From an uncultured Bacteroidota bacterium (GTDB lineage Bacteria > Bacteroidota > Bacteroidia > 2-12-FULL-35-15): a stretch of DNA of 63,966 nucleotides. How positions within the stretch are numbered: position 1 is the first letter of the stretch; each line of letters begins with the position of its first letter. The stretch covers positions 1-63,966 of the forward strand of contig CAIYIS010000062.1 in the NCBI GenBank assembly GCA_903926385.1, given 5' to 3'. Made by a program: the position numbers and the translations under genes. The notes beneath the pieces are model-generated. The model searched no databases. It saw only the letters and a program-made list of their open reading frames with translations, and had not been told where the DNA came from. Positions 3,910 through 58,442 of this stretch are shown in pieces.

Positions 3910-4203
3910 CAAGTCCATCTTTTCACATTCCATGTCCGTTTTTTCTAATAGCATGTCCGACTTTTTCAATAGCATGTCTGGTTTTTATCATTCCATGTCC
4001 GACTTTTAACATTCCATGTCCGACTTTTTCAATAGCATGTCCGGTTTTTAACATTTCATGTCCGACTTTTCACTTTCCATGTCCGACTTTTTTAATTCCG
4101 TGTCCGGTTTTAACATTTCCATGTCATGTTTTTTTAATAGCATGTCATGTTTTTCAAATAGCATGTCATGTTTTTTCAAAAGCATGTCATGTTTTTCATC
4201 ACC
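3910..4203. repeat. Array A: 14 tandem units of exactly 21 bp
   Basis: Fourteen consecutive units begin every 21 bases (3910, 3931, 3952 ... 4183) with no insertion or deletion. The consensus is CATGTCCG followed by a pyrimidine-rich T tract and a variable six-base end (CAATAG, ACATTC and so on). The last four units have changed to CATGTCATG. Substitutions are frequent, so the units are old, yet the register is perfect. The period makes several frames open, which yields spurious heptapeptide proteins. No hairpin of note is present within a unit. Confidence 0.93.
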
Positions 4204-12484: not shown

Positions 12485-14545
12485 TTAGCCTTTCATAAAT
12501 CGTAAGAGCGCTATTTCGACAGCGAGGAAAAGCAAGACCATAATGATGCAAAGTTTCCAAAGCTTTTTGCCCTGATCGGTTTCGGTTAAGGTTTGTGTTA
12601 AACTTTTGGCCGATGTTTCTATTACTTGTATGTTCTGTATGTTTTTGTCGGAGATTTGTTTTTTCAATTCGTCAGCGTTGTAACAAGTAAGGTCGGATTC
12701 TTTGCGATTAAAATTAAAAGAAAGGCCGGTTACCAGGTCTTTGTCGGCATACAACAGATAATTGCCGGCATCGGTTATTTGATTATGAATAAAGATTTCG
12801 GTTTTCGAATCTTGAACTTTATGCTCGGGGATAACATCAAAAGTGGAGTTGACACCTTTTATATGAAACACACTTTCGCCTGTAAGCACATTGGCCGACT
12901 CGATGGAAGAATTGCTACCAATGGTATAAAACAAAGGAGATGAACTCTGGCTAAACATTCCTATTTTATATAAAGTAGGAACAAAGACAGAATGCTTGGC
13001 AAAGTTGGAGAAATCGGCACCGAGCGATACGGCAGAAGTATAGAGCTTGCCTTTGCCTACATCGTATTTGCATAAAAAATTATCTCCGTTTTGCATTTTT
13101 AATAAATATTCTTCGTTGCTCTGAACAGCTTTTGAAAGCACAAAATGCGAATTTACTTTAGGCAAATCGAGATTGGTGGCAGTAAAGGTTTTTTTGTCGA
13201 ATACATCTTTATAAATGGGATTATCGAGATTGATTTTGTCGATGCGGGTATTGGCGGTGTCGAGCTTTTCGAAATAATTTGCTTTAACGGAAACAAAAAA
13301 GTCTTTATACGAAGGCATGTCGGCTTGAGCATTTGGGAAAACCACCACACTGCCGCCTGCTACCATAAAGCGATTGAGCTCCTGAGCCAGTCCGGAAGAA
13401 ATGGATTTAAGTTCGTTCAGAATAATAAGTTTGTTTTGTGATAGCTGAGAATAATCTAACTTGTTTTCCCAGCTATTTTTCAAAATAAAAAGAGAATCGG
13501 CTCCAAATAGCTTATTAATATAAGGACTTTCTGAATTGGCCAGGGAGCTATTGATGCACAATACAGGAATGTTTTTGGCTACTGTGAAGGTAAAGTAGAA
13601 TTTATCGTCAAACGTAACCGGAAAATCGTTGAGCTCCACCCTGCATTGCTGCAAGCCCGACTCTTTAGAAGCAAACGAAAGCACTACTTCGGTTTCGGCA
13701 TTCTTATCTACAGTATAGCTTGCGGGTGTTTTTTGAATGTTATTGATAAATAATTTAACCGAATTGTTTTCGATGGCTTTGTCGGAAACATTTTTAATTC
13801 GAATGTGGAGCTTTTCGGCTTGGTTGAGCTGACGAACGGGTGTTTCGAACCAGCAGGTGTCGATGTAAATATTGTTTTTTTCGGTGGCGGTGAGGGGAAC
13901 AAAATGAATGCTCACATTGGTATCGTTCTTTATATTATCAATGTTGACAAGGCTTTTCTGAAAGTCGGAGATGATATAAGATGCTTTGCTACGGGTGTTG
14001 GCTTGTTGCAAAACATCCATTTGACGGGAAATAATTTCGGACAGACTGCGTGTGGAAGGGCTTATTTTAACCTCATCGAGCAATTCGGCAAACTCTTCTT
14101 TGTTAACCAGGCGCTGGTGTTTGCCTTCAAAATCGTTGGTAAGCAATTGTATTTTGTCGGTAGGTTTGTAGGCAGCTATAATTTCTAATGCGCGTTTCTT
14201 AGCTTCGCCAAGCAGAGTGCCGCTTTTGTTAACGGCATCCATACTAAACGAGTTGTCGATAAAAATGCTGATGGTTTTGTCGCCTACTGTGGTTTTTTTG
14301 TTTTCGGAAGGTATGTAGGGCTGAGCAAAGGCAAATACCAGAAAGCAAATGGCCAGAATGCGGGCCAGCAAAACAAGCAGGTTTTTGAGTTTGGATTTGG
14401 CTTTGGTTTCTTCTTTAACTTCTTTTAAAAAACGAACGTTGCTAAAATAAACGGTTTTGAACTTTCGGAAGTTAAATAAATGAATAATGATGGGTATAGC
14501 TACTGCTAAAAGTGCAAAAAGAAATGCTGGATAGGTAAAGTTCAT
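12485..14545 (-). CDS. BatA-domain vWA membrane protein
   Basis: The 686-residue protein begins with the BatA N-terminal double-transmembrane domain (YPAFLFALLAVAIPIIIHLF, then VLLARILAICFLVFAFAQPYI). A von Willebrand A domain follows, with an intact MIDAS start DNSFSMD near residues 93-99. A long beta-rich middle leads to a C-terminal membrane segment (LCIIMVLLFLAVEIALL). Such proteins belong to the Bat/aerotolerance-like systems or stand alone in Bacteroidota; no moxR or other bat genes are adjacent. The ATG at 14545 is chosen over the TTG at 14548 because a TACTTTTG box ends seven bases upstream. Confidence 0.85.
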   Translation of the reverse strand: MNFTYPAFLFALLAVAIPIIIHLFNFRKFKTVYFSNVRFLKEVKEETKAKSKLKNLLVLLARILAICFLVFAFAQPYIPSENKKTTVGDKTISIFIDNSFSMDAVNKSGTLLGEAKKRALEIIAAYKPTDKIQLLTNDFEGKHQRLVNKEEFAELLDEVKISPSTRSLSEIISRQMDVLQQANTRSKASYIISDFQKSLVNIDNIKNDTNVSIHFVPLTATEKNNIYIDTCWFETPVRQLNQAEKLHIRIKNVSDKAIENNSVKLFINNIQKTPASYTVDKNAETEVVLSFASKESGLQQCRVELNDFPVTFDDKFYFTFTVAKNIPVLCINSSLANSESPYINKLFGADSLFILKNSWENKLDYSQLSQNKLIILNELKSISSGLAQELNRFMVAGGSVVVFPNAQADMPSYKDFFVSVKANYFEKLDTANTRIDKINLDNPIYKDVFDKKTFTATNLDLPKVNSHFVLSKAVQSNEEYLLKMQNGDNFLCKYDVGKGKLYTSAVSLGADFSNFAKHSVFVPTLYKIGMFSQSSSPLFYTIGSNSSIESANVLTGESVFHIKGVNSTFDVIPEHKVQDSKTEIFIHNQITDAGNYLLYADKDLVTGLSFNFNRKESDLTCYNADELKKQISDKNIQNIQVIETSAKSLTQTLTETDQGKKLWKLCIIMVLLFLAVEIALLRFMKG

Positions 14546-14552
14546 CAAAGCC

Positions 14553-14560
14553 CAAAAGTA
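14553..14560 (-). promoter_or_regulatory. -7 box TACTTTTG, near-leaderless
   Basis: TACTTTTG lies seven bases before the ATG of the BatA gene on the minus strand, a third case of a -7 box almost touching the start codon. Confidence 0.45.
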
Positions 14561-14926
14561 ATACTTTTTTTGGTTGGTGAGGGGGATTTTAAATTTTAGA
14601 ATTTTGGATTTGTAGATTTTTAAGAATTAATGAGAGGATGTAAGCGACCTATTAAAAACACAAAGTCTTACTAACCCATTTTGTTTTCTTTTGGCCAATT
14701 TCCTATTGGCATATCCTATTACCCATAGGAGTTATATCTTAATAGTAAAATCATTAATGTGAATTTATAAACTCCATTGGAATAATATTTTTAATTGCTT
14801 AAACAAAATCATATTCCTCAATAGCCATACTTTTCATACCTTCCTTTTTTTGAGGAAGAATAAAATAGAAGTTAAAATGTGACTATTCGAAAACAAGAGA
14901 ATTGTACTTTTCGTGGAGCTGCCTGC

Positions 14927-15290
14927 GAGAACTCTCGGGCAAGCTCCACATGTGGTGGAACGAGGTGTGTCAACTCTCGGGACGTTCCACCAATTGGTGA
15001 GATTACGTTGGAGAACTCTTAGGACGTTGCACAAATCGTGGAAGAGACTTAGAGAACTCTTAGGGCGTTCCACCAAATGGTGGGATAACGTTAGAGAACT
15101 CTATGGCAGTCCCACGATTTGTGGAAGAGCCTTAGAGAACTCTCAGGACATTCCACCAATTGGTGAGATAACCTTAGAGAACTCTTAGGACGTTCCACGA
15201 AAGGTGGAATAGTATTAGAGAACTCTCAGGACGTTCCACCAATTGGTGAGATAACCACAGAGAACTCGCACGACATTCCACCTGTCGGAA
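14927..15290. repeat. Array B: about nine units of 41-42 bp with a central dyad
   Basis: The phrase GAGAACTCT recurs with starts of AACTCT at 14930, 14972, 15014, 15055, 15097, 15138, 15180, 15221 and 15263, so spacings are 42, 42, 41, 42, 41, 42, 41 and 42. Each unit carries a dyad near its centre: CCACATGTGG, CACCAATTGGTG, CCACCAAATGGTGG, CCACGATTTGTGG or CCACGAAAGGTGG. The loop changes while the CCAC/GTGG arms persist. The one-base drift excludes coding. The rest of the 14549-15552 spacer shows only an AT-rich phrase near 14590-14625 and, at 15334-15380, a degenerate CTCTCC...GGGGGAG element. Confidence 0.9.
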
Positions 15291-15512
15291 GCATAGCATT
15301 TTGAAACTTGCAGGCTCATAAAACCAATTTTAACCTATCTCCTTAATCCACTCTCCACAATTAAGGGGGAGCAATGTGACAGTTGGGAGTAACGTTTTTT
15401 TAATTTCTCTTGCCTTTTGCCCGTTAGTTGTTCACAATGCCCTTCCCTATTGGCTTTTGCTGCTTTGTTTTTTTTATTTTCGATGAAGTATTTTTTATAT
15501 TAGAGTTATTGC

Positions 15513-15520
15513 TAAATTTG
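15513..15520 (+). promoter_or_regulatory. -7 box TAAATTTG of the etfBA operon
   Basis: TAAATTTG fits TAnnTTTG and lies 32 bases before the etfB ATG, in the correct position to drive etfB, etfA and probably the downstream genes. Confidence 0.55.
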
Positions 15521-15552: not shown

Positions 15553-16293
15553 ATGAAAATATTAGTCTGTATAAGCAACGTACCCGACACAACAACGAAA
15601 ATTAGTTTTACAAACGACAATACCACTTTTAATGCAGCGGGAGTTCAGTTTGTGATTAATCCATTTGATGAATATTATGCACTGGTGCGGGGGCTGGAAT
15701 TAAAAGAAACGTTGGGCGGAAATGTAACTATTCTGCATGTGGGCGGAGGCGAAAGCGAACCTACTATTCGTAAGGGGTTGGCTATAGGAGCTGATGATGC
15801 GGTAAGAATAGATGGAGAACCAAATGATGCTTTTGCGGTGGCAGAGCAAATAGCTACTTATGCTAAAGACAAGGGTTACGATTTGATAATGGTGGGTAAA
15901 GAAACCATTAATTACAATGGAGCATTGGTAGGGGCTATGATAGCCGAATTGATGAATCTTCCGTTTGTGTCGCTGGCTACTAAACTAGATGTGGCAGGCA
16001 ATGTGGCAACGATAGAACACGATATAGACGGAGGTACGGAGGTGTTGGAATGTAATTTACCACTTGTATTGTCGGCAAACAAAGGTATGGCCGAAGCACG
16101 AATTCCAAACATGAGAGGTATTATGGCTGCTCGTACCAAACCTTTGGTTCAGGTGCCTGCGGCTAATGCTGATAAGTTGACTTCTGTAATATCTTACGAA
16201 CTGGCAAAAGGCAGAACGGAATGTAAATTTGTGGATGCTGCTACTCCTGAAAAGTTAATTGAACTTTTACACTCGGAGGCAAAAGCAATATAA
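15553..16293 (+). CDS. etfB: Electron transfer flavoprotein beta subunit
   Basis: EtfB pairs with EtfA to accept electrons from acyl-CoA dehydrogenases and pass them to the quinone pool. The 246-residue length is normal. The N-terminus ILVCISNVPDTTTKISF and NPFDEYYALVRGLELKE are family features, as is DLIMVGKETINYNGALVGAMIAELMNLPFVS near residue 120. The end RMIMAARTKP-like segment (RGIMAARTKPL) is the EtfB recognition-loop area. It is the first gene of the operon, with a -7 box 32 bases upstream, and etfA follows after a 48-bp AT-rich spacer. Confidence 0.95.
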   Translation: MKILVCISNVPDTTTKISFTNDNTTFNAAGVQFVINPFDEYYALVRGLELKETLGGNVTILHVGGGESEPTIRKGLAIGADDAVRIDGEPNDAFAVAEQIATYAKDKGYDLIMVGKETINYNGALVGAMIAELMNLPFVSLATKLDVAGNVATIEHDIDGGTEVLECNLPLVLSANKGMAEARIPNMRGIMAARTKPLVQVPAANADKLTSVISYELAKGRTECKFVDAATPEKLIELLHSEAKAI

Positions 16294-20723: not shown

Positions 20724-21101
20724 CAGCAGATGTCCTTCGGGAGCCAGCAGATGTCCTTCGGGAGTCAGCAGATGTTCTTCGGGAGCCAGCAGATGTCCTT
20801 CGGGAGTCAGCAGATGTCCTTCGGGAGTCAGCAGATGTCCTTCGGGAGTCAGCAGATGTCCTTCGGGAGCCAGCAGATGTCCTTCGGGAGCCAGCAGATG
20901 TCCTTCGGAAGCCATCAAATGTCCTTCGGGAGTCAGCAGATGTCCTTCGGAAGCCATCAAATGTCCTTCGGAAGCCAGCAGATGTCCTTCGGAAGTCAGC
21001 AGATATCCTTCGGGAGTCAGCAGATGTCCTTCGGGAGTCAGCAGATATCCTTCGGAAGCCAGCAGATGTCCTTCGGAAACCTCCAGATGTGTATCTTCCC
21101 G
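20724..21101. repeat. Array C: 18 tandem units of exactly 21 bp
   Basis: Units start at 20724 and every 21 bases to 21081 without any indel. The consensus is CAGCAGATGTCCTTCGG plus GAGC or AAGC or GAGT. Variation is limited to a few positions, making this the youngest-looking array; the last unit is degenerate. Each unit contains TCC-TTCG-GGA, which as RNA would form a small UUCG-type hairpin. It is GC-rich compared with its surroundings. It lies between the convergent ends of folA and the btuG-like gene, flanked on both sides by GGGGAGAGGTG elements (20699-20711 and 21180-21190). Confidence 0.95.
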
Positions 21102-48131: not shown

Positions 48132-48262
48132 CACAAATATAATACATATATATATATGTATACTTAAAACTTACCCCAACCGTCACGTTTCTCCTCCTCT
48201 CCTTCGGAGAGGGGATTAAGGGGTGAGGTGTTTTTGCGGAGAGGGGCAGGGGAGAGGTGATA
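48132..48262. repeat. Dispersed module 1, copy 2
   Basis: CACAAATATAATACATATAT is followed by a palindromic TATATGTAT, then TTACCCCAACCGTCACGTTT, the hairpin CCTCTCC-TTCG-GAGAGG, GGATTAAGGGGTGAGGTG, and a second GCGGAGAGGGGCAGGGGAG with GAGGTGAT. The order matches 3595-3696. Array E follows some 150 bases later; the interval 48263-48408 shows no feature. Confidence 0.72.
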
Positions 48263-48408: not shown

Positions 48409-48744
48409 AACTGGAGTACTCGACTTGATAAATGAAGTACTTCCCTTCCTAAATGAAGTACTTCCCTTCCTAAATGGAGTACTTCCCTTCCTAAATGGAG
48501 TACTTCCCTTCCTAAATGAAGTACTTCCCTTCCTAAATGGAGTACTTCCTTTCCTAAATGAAGTACTTCCCTTCCTAAATGGAGTACTTCCTTTCCTAAA
48601 TGAAGTACTTCCCTTCCTAAATGAAGTACTCCATCTGTTAAATGAAGTACTTCCCTTCCTAAATGAAGTACTTCCTTTCCTAAATGAAGTACTTCCCTTC
48701 CTGAATGAAGTACTTCCCTTCCTAAATATAGCACAATCCTGCCC
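48409..48744. repeat. Array E: 16 tandem units of exactly 21 bp
   Basis: Units start at 48409 and every 21 bases to 48724. The consensus is AAATGAAGTACTTCC followed by CTTCCT, in which GAAGTACTTC is a perfect palindrome. Several units have GGAGTACTTC, one has a replaced end (CCATCTGTT), yet no indel occurs. The last unit is degenerate and merges into an intrinsic terminator hairpin. The register is coding-compatible, but reading frames exist on both strands only as heptapeptide repeats and lack gene signals. The array lies between divergent genes. Confidence 0.94.
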
Positions 48745-58190: not shown

Positions 58191-58442
58191 ATAGTATATT
58201 CCAAAATTTTAGAATATATGTTGAACAAGTTTAGGGCTTATTCCTGAAAATGGGAATATGTGTTGAATAAGTTTAGGGCTTATTATTGAAAATGGAAATA
58301 TGTGTTGAATGAGTTTAAGGCTTATTCCTGAAAATAGGAATATGTGTTGAATTAGTTTATGGCCTATTCCTGAAGATGGGAAACGGTGTTGAATGAGCTC
58401 AGTGCTTTTTCCTGAAAATAGGAATTGGCAACTATCAAAATA
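58191..58442. repeat. Array F: alternating 21-bp units, 42-bp period
   Basis: Two alternating 21-base units, GAATATGTGTTGAATAAG plus TTT and AGGGCTTATTCCTGAAAA plus TGG, start at 58212, 58233, 58254 and so on to 58401, ten intact units, with degenerate units at each end. No indels. Alternating hairpins form across units: GAATAAG with CTTATTC, and ATTCCT with AGGAAT. Stop codons occur in the units, so it does not code. The 58107-58612 spacer holds nothing else recognised beyond a TACTTTGC near 58583 that could be a weak -7 box. Confidence 0.93.

Follow-up and report, generated by a model that had tools for sequence, protein, structure and literature searches.

The DNA analysed here, referred to as the window, is a stretch of 63,966 nucleotides from an uncultured Bacteroidota bacterium. 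Array B is a non-coding intergenic stretch of the window lying between two divergent genes. The left neighbor, an open reading frame of 687 amino acids on the minus strand (12485-14548), is putatively of the Bat/von Willebrand A type; the right neighbor, on the plus strand (15553-16293), is presumably etfB, electron transfer flavoprotein beta, and had a match in 29 of the 31 genomes searched. Upstream of each gene there is a promoter-like box, TAAATTTG for etfB (15513-15520, plus strand) and TACTTTTG for the divergent gene (14553-14560, minus strand), both assigned on the basis of the promoter consensus TAnnTTTG. The two boxes point outward from array B, which ends about 200 bp upstream of the etfB box; this box is visible in several relatives too. 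Including its decayed end units, array B spans 14902-15316 (outer limits judged by eye) and comprises some 18-20 modules, each 20-21 bp long and turned the opposite way to the one before it. Near its ends an inverted pair is found, GCCTGCGAG at 14921-14929 and CTTGCAGGC at 15307-15315, which are at most candidate transposon ends. A dispersed hairpin-like repeat of the GGAGAGGGGATTAAGGGG type, present at 15330-15400, at 48200-48260 and in the flanks of several other arrays, seemingly recurs beside arrays.

The original prediction described a tandem array at this place with a spacing that alternates between 42 and 41 bp, and both statements were borne out. The well-conserved core was called by TRF at 14972-15282 with a period of 41, 42 or 83 (core period 41.5 bp), and a repeat search recovered a 24-nt family with start-to-start spacings of 42, 41, 42, 41, 42, 41 and 42. 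This alternation implies two unit types, a 42-bp and a 41-bp unit that together make the 83-bp higher-order repeat, and the mean module step is 20.75 bp, not 21.0. The further claim that every unit has CCAC...GTGG arms was overstated, as CCAC followed by 4-6 nt and GTGG occurs in four of nine units (W1, W4, W5 and W7). Units W2, W6 and W8 carry the palindrome CACC-AATT-GGTG, shifted by one base and followed by A, W3 has GCAC and W9 lacks the right arm. Most units do have a dyad near the middle, exemplified by CCACCAATTGGTG at 15152-15168, which is the dyad that had been noticed and marks where two modules meet by their CCACCAA ends. A second dyad that had been missed, AGAGAACTCT, lies midway and joins two modules by their CTCT ends (example at 15051-15060; in other units it starts at 14926, 14968 (TGTCAACTCT), 15010, 15093, 15134, 15176, 15217 and 15259). 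It is the better kept of the two (majority fraction 0.89 vs 0.83), and at one mismatch or fewer eight of its ten matches in the window fall in array B, against 2.75 expected in the whole window.

The symmetry of array B results from one 21-bp module alternating in orientation. When 17 units, from array B and from a second copy in the same genome (see below), were cut at the dyad centers, the 34 resulting pieces of 20-21 bp proved to be one module, WCTCTNAGGNNNTTCCACCAA, alternately inverted. Left pieces and inverted right pieces have a mean identity of 0.54, vs 0.31 when compared directly and 0.34 in a column-permutation control (sd 0.04, highest of 200 being 0.45). Each tested singly, all 34 pieces resemble the others more closely when oriented as assigned than when turned round, including W9R, the last piece of the window, where the fit is weak (0.40 vs 0.31). 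In the window copy a variant module starting with TGACACACC is inverted, whereas the second copy has it in direct orientation; hence modules seem able to turn round. Array B is, then, built from one 21-bp module that alternates in orientation, and the dyads are no signals of their own: each is a junction of opposed modules, the two dyads being the two kinds of junction. Their axes are about equally spaced (~21 bp in one unit type, ~20.5 bp in the other). The 83-bp consensus has a self-reverse-complement identity of 0.65 vs 0.43 in shuffles (p 0.001), under a null that takes no account of the 21-bp sub-structure and is lenient when units are long. Taken alone, even the strongest local dyad of this consensus falls short of significance (p 0.06 and 0.07, with 0.56 and 0.57 for the second copy).

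The second copy, 80% identical over 311 bp, is located at contig 79, 24388-24698, of this genome. It is also placed between divergent genes, which we read as apbE- and secA-like. Both copies have the decayed end units in common, and weak similarity continues for about 30-40 bp into each flank (14862-14901 on the left and 15317-15347 on the right of array B). A right-end probe had two matches in the genome, namely the two copies; a left-end probe matched both without mismatch and, at three mismatches, 12 further places, six of them within the two arrays. No third copy was found by the probes in this genome, a count that may be wrong since the assemblies are drafts (85 contigs here, 7 to 1290 in the relatives). 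Array B DNA had no match in 40 relatives nor in 35 other genomes of the genus (overlapping sets), and the left neighbor was found at none of 20 etfB loci of relatives, within 1.5-3 kb on each side. Two relatives carry repeats of a different module upstream of etfB: a 21-bp x2.8 array at ~190 bp (G004) and a 21-bp x2 duplication at ~60 bp (G014).

Array B is one of many intergenic arrays, mostly unrelated in sequence, that share a 21-bp quantum; the class is present in this and two related species. TRF was applied to 370 kb and then to 770 kb of this genome (score at least 100), with genes predicted by a codon-usage script. In the 770 kb, 40 of 48 intergenic tandem arrays have a period within 1 bp of a multiple of 21 (21n): eight of 21, 18 of 42, five of 63 and the rest of 41, 83, 84, 125-127 and 168. 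Within genes, only two of 15 arrays are near 21n (Fisher p 1.5e-6 vs intergenic). At the same score the proportion is 13 of 14 intergenic arrays in G014 and 9 of 11 in G042, or 8 of 10 once an array split by a stretch boundary is counted once. The period is an exact multiple of 21 in 60 of the 65 class arrays, a set that includes the split G042 array as two (L229 1 and L230 19802), the G014 array L177 172, which the script placed inside a gene, and the coding-looking array L217 4395. In a second scan for simple duplications of these three genomes, 54 of 63 intergenic cases are near 21n, and 19 of 27 few-copy duplications have a period of 20-22, 41-43 or 62-64. Periods near 52-53 are missing and there is one weak array near 31-32 (period 32). 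By extrapolation, this array-rich genome would hold about 220 such arrays in total. Within the window, a further member, located between convergent genes at 20724-21090, is a 21-bp x17.5 direct array in which no dyad is significant; the long open reading frames on both of its strands arise from the repeat.

The distribution of the class is uneven. No 21n arrays were detected in the samples of six other genomes of the genus (100 kb each of G002, G008, G009, G010 and G018, and 60 kb of G015), which contained four intergenic arrays in all, with periods of 39, 95, 101 and 199. From 42 kb of G004 and 20 kb of G013, both small samples, one 21n array each was recovered, and in addition one array of period 18 and one of 19; no intergenic arrays were found in 6-20 kb each of G003, G005, G006 and G012. 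Four genomes of other families (300 kb) gave one array each of period 63, 82 and 15. In 80 etfB loci of named Bacteroidota (500 kb), two of which are those of G014 and G015 themselves, six intergenic arrays were recorded at a score of at least 80 (periods 3, 7, 16, 19, 21 and 84). Among the matches listed by a search of open-licence PubMed Central, none was found to describe intergenic arrays of Bacteroidota with a 21-bp quantum; intergenic tandem repeats are reported in lake Planctomycetota, in the part of that source consulted (PMC9426551).

In the class, modules run head-to-tail (period 21) or alternate (period 42). Among 28 arrays with a 42-letter consensus, eight consist of two similar 21-mers in direct order (identity at least 0.71) and 14 combine low direct 21-bp similarity (0.05-0.33) with significant self-reverse-complement symmetry; two are borderline (p 0.06 and 0.07) and four are neither direct nor alternating. 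Eight of the 14 clear alternating arrays make up one family with ACCTC...GAGGT arms, two of these being the halves of the split G042 array. With the 21-bp sub-structure kept in the null, whole-unit symmetry reaches p<0.05 in 25 of 56 testable arrays, those of the 65 with a consensus length that is an exact multiple of 21 (array B was tested separately), and 31 show no significant symmetry. After removal of relatives by a hand-made list of 14 arrays (12 among the 56), which left weaker homologous pairs in place, 13 to 15 of 44 remain symmetric in two random runs; a stricter removal leaves 11 of 35 (binomial p 7e-7). Whole-unit symmetry proved a better measure than local dyads, which were rejected as a general class property (7 of 30, then 18 of 65 arrays; array B itself at p 0.06 and 0.07). 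Selection for curvature was not supported for the class either, with a mean rank of 0.49 among unit shuffles (array B, 0.08), computed from wedge angles. The window also contains at 58212-58425 a 42-bp x5 array with GAATAAG...CTTATTC, whose whole unit is neither direct nor alternating.

The ACCTC family was found in this genome, G013, G014 and G042 (5 of 31 genomes matched, G002 with one weak match). Over eight array consensuses its arms carry compensated changes (score 0.276 vs 0.130, with 0 of 500 shuffles as high), amounting to 11 double-change cells vs 5.1 in shuffles and six pairs vs 3.6 (18 of 500 shuffles as high), although the structure was drawn from the same sequences on which it was tested. 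These changes fit selection and also hairpin-templated correction: template switching in hairpins is known from quasi-palindrome mutation and would mimic selection on arms. Two ACCTC-family arrays adjoin similar 318-aa open reading frames without Pfam match (L046 13428-14384 and L049 2408-3364), and frame and array seem to have been duplicated together.

Inside the arrays, sequence seems to change rapidly and length hardly at all. Neighboring units have 0.022 gaps per substitution vs 0.090 in paralogous flanks (p 7e-10), a baseline that is rough, as gene sequence lies in some of the flanks and several pairs are of the same family, and the shortage of indels may in part be ascertainment because TRF disfavors gaps. 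At 48429-48727 the window carries a 21-bp x14 array with GAAGTACTTC, whose left flank matches a flank of another array (L203 16747-17151) at 97% identity over 204 bp, whereas the arrays themselves are only ~70-75% alike, both keeping the 21-bp frame and a GTAC core. Such a flank beside arrays so different points to fast internal turnover with fixed length. About 104-115 bp of the same flank are also found at L214 1898, beside a 42-bp array of different sequence.

The reading of array B that we favor, with about even confidence, is that of a helically phased intergenic minisatellite, similar to the bacterial interspersed mosaic elements (BIMEs) and amplified at the DNA level. The arrays would grow and homogenise by slippage or unequal exchange, and foldback template switching would make and repair the inverted junctions. 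The length of 21 bp may be kept because it corresponds to two turns of B-DNA at 10.5 bp per turn: multiples of 21 would be the sole whole-base periods to hold rotational phase over many copies, so that every module end and dyad axis would face about the same side of the helix. This would explain the missing ~52-53 and nearly missing ~31-32 periods. The arrays would mainly be self-perpetuating repeats with no gene-specific task; as with BIMEs, abundant nucleoid proteins may use them as phased docking sites. The compensated arm changes of the ACCTC family are not predicted by a purely mutational origin alone.

According to the parts of the sources consulted, BIMEs are formed by REP sequences in alternating orientation (PMC2817692) and REPs are small palindromes (PMC3733652), which are tied to Y1-type transposases. 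Like array B, BIMEs are intergenic, with regularly spaced units in alternating orientation and dyads throughout. Unlike a REP, the module WCTCTNAGGNNNTTCCACCAA is not palindromic, and at the level of the class most arrays have their own module and Y1-type (RAYT) genes do not track arrays: matches to the Y1 transposase family (PF01797) number two in this array-rich genome (one over the cut-off), two in G014 and five in G042, and in the array-poor genomes five in G002, 11 in G015, three in G018, one each in G008 and G009 and none in G010.

The original prediction had suggested selection for dyad symmetry, as for a dimeric DNA-binding protein or an RNA hairpin. Part of this stands: the symmetry is real, and arm columns are more conserved than other columns (+0.15, permutation p 0.0017), as are the second-dyad arms alone (p 0.015), both over 17 units that are not independent. 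However, the covariation check that it proposed, made across the units of array B, found none in the arms (score 0.033 vs 0.050 in shuffles, 382 of 500 of which score as high), and the alternation of modules already yields the symmetry. In the protein version, a dimeric or polymerising protein would occupy a dyad every two turns on one face of the helix, selection keeping arms and spacing; we consider such a phased operator array possible, though rather unlikely. Besides the conserved arms, it would account for the nearly equal spacing of the dyad axes, the scarcity of indels within arrays and the compensated arm changes of the 42-bp ACCTC family in this genome, G013, G014 and G042. The placement of the arrays speaks for it or against it depending on the measure. 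Both copies of array B lie between divergent genes and, counted per gap, so do more arrays of this genome than expected: the gaps holding arrays are 14 divergent, 19 same-direction and 5 convergent, vs 7.1, 25.8 and 5.1 expected by gap number. By intergenic length the expectation is 11.3, 22.1 and 4.6, that is, per intergenic base the arrays favor no orientation of the neighboring genes and are not clearly aimed at promoters or terminators (in the same order, the counts are 5, 4 and 3 in G014 and 1, 5 and 0 in G042, too few to tell). Moreover, most arrays are unrelated in sequence, thus one specific protein cannot read them all; over half of the testable arrays are without significant symmetry, the array B arms do not covary and the 35 other genomes of the genus gave no match to array B.

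A bolder proposal, which we regard as speculative and rather unlikely, is that in several related Bacteroidota a dedicated, sequence-indifferent process makes or maintains arrays of 21-bp modules, direct or alternating, at about 35-50 intergenic sites per Mb; the agent would be either an enzyme that copies DNA 21 bp at a time or a DNA-binding protein that polymerises and selects phase. No mechanism or factor that counts 21 bp was found in the course of this analysis. Intergenic tandem arrays are usually treated as accidents of sequence. Here the sequence is free, whereas the length is nearly constant and equals the smallest whole number of bases that preserves rotational phase; this holds in some species of the genus and apparently not in others. 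The pattern points to an unknown factor in the array-rich species, and comparing these with array-poor species offers a clean way to decide if mutation or selection imposes the helical phase. The TAACTGA direct repeats of Beggiatoaceae and some Bacteroidetes resemble the class in being abundant, intergenic, sporadically distributed and of unsettled purpose, but, as far as described in the part of the source consulted, they consist of one fixed 7-bp sequence, whereas in the class the sequence varies and the 21-bp length is nearly fixed (PMC4679880).

Apart from the favored BIME-like minisatellite, array B might be the interior of a miniature element (MITE) mobilised by a transposase in trans, a reading that we judge unlikely. 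Its models are BrickBuilt (23-nt repeats) and MITE464/PgRS (41-nt repeats) of Porphyromonas gingivalis (PMC4596501), which, in the portion of the report consulted, share with array B the Bacteroidota host, the intergenic and species-restricted occurrence and the tandem repeats between end segments. Two dispersed copies with common decayed ends and short flanks, the inverted pair GCCTG.../...CAGGC at the array ends and the flanks of ~50-250 bp that some other array families share between loci would agree with this origin. On the other hand, no target-site duplication was seen by eye in either copy beside the inverted pair, which marks putative ends at most, similarity between the copies continues past this pair on both sides, and the probes found only two copies. 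The Y1 family, the insertion-sequence type that was surveyed, does not track arrays. BrickBuilt is described in the same portion of the report as one sequence, present in 19 copies and bounded by IS5-like terminal inverted repeats, against two copies and a candidate inverted pair for array B, and the genome-wide 21-bp quantum over mostly unrelated sequences also sets the class apart from it (PMC4596501).

The RNA version of the original prediction, in which array B would be transcribed and fold into one long stem, is very unlikely, because the array is upstream of outward-facing promoter-like boxes on both sides. The predicted folding energy is far below that of dinucleotide shuffles (z -9.2; second copy, -6.8), but such folding is inevitable in an array of alternating modules. 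Among ACCTC-family units, a change on one side of a pair gives G-U more often than A-C, read on the strand shown (for example at pair 5-16, T-G 17 and C-A 2 of 52 units, which are not independent), which would suit an RNA stem; at array B there is no Rfam match at the gathering threshold. Predicted strong RNA folding and a modular build are also features of the BOX elements of Streptococcus pneumoniae, in which end modules surround a variable number of tandem boxB units; these differ from the array B class in being one sequence family of high copy number, and no alternating 21-bp module is described for them in the part of the source consulted (PMC3049150). Rfam matches elsewhere in the window are a Flavo-1 RNA (RF01705; 3331-3418, minus strand), near an array at 3913-4196, and a Cobalamin riboswitch (RF00174; 24431-24715, minus strand).

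A coding repeat or its relic, in which seven codons of a heptad protein repeat would give the 21 bp, has next to no credibility for array B, where the 41/42 alternation shifts every frame so that none persists, and for the class the multiples of three (21, 42 and 63) and the excess of open frames (120 vs 103, sd 5, in shuffles) are countered by the absence of codon phase in substitutions (p<0.05 in 3 of 39 arrays, combined p 0.92) and by frames that, outside the arrays, end about as soon as by chance (medians 11 and 13 codons vs 12 in the background; means 17.5 and 25.7 vs 17.2, one 838-codon case included), G014 L177 172 excepted. The class looks largely non-coding, and, given the excess of open frames, some of its arrays may be coding. 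The L217 4395 array reads by eye as a heptad protein repeat, and the 21-bp x11 repeat at G014 L177 172-411, contained in a long open frame, probably encodes a 7-residue repeat.
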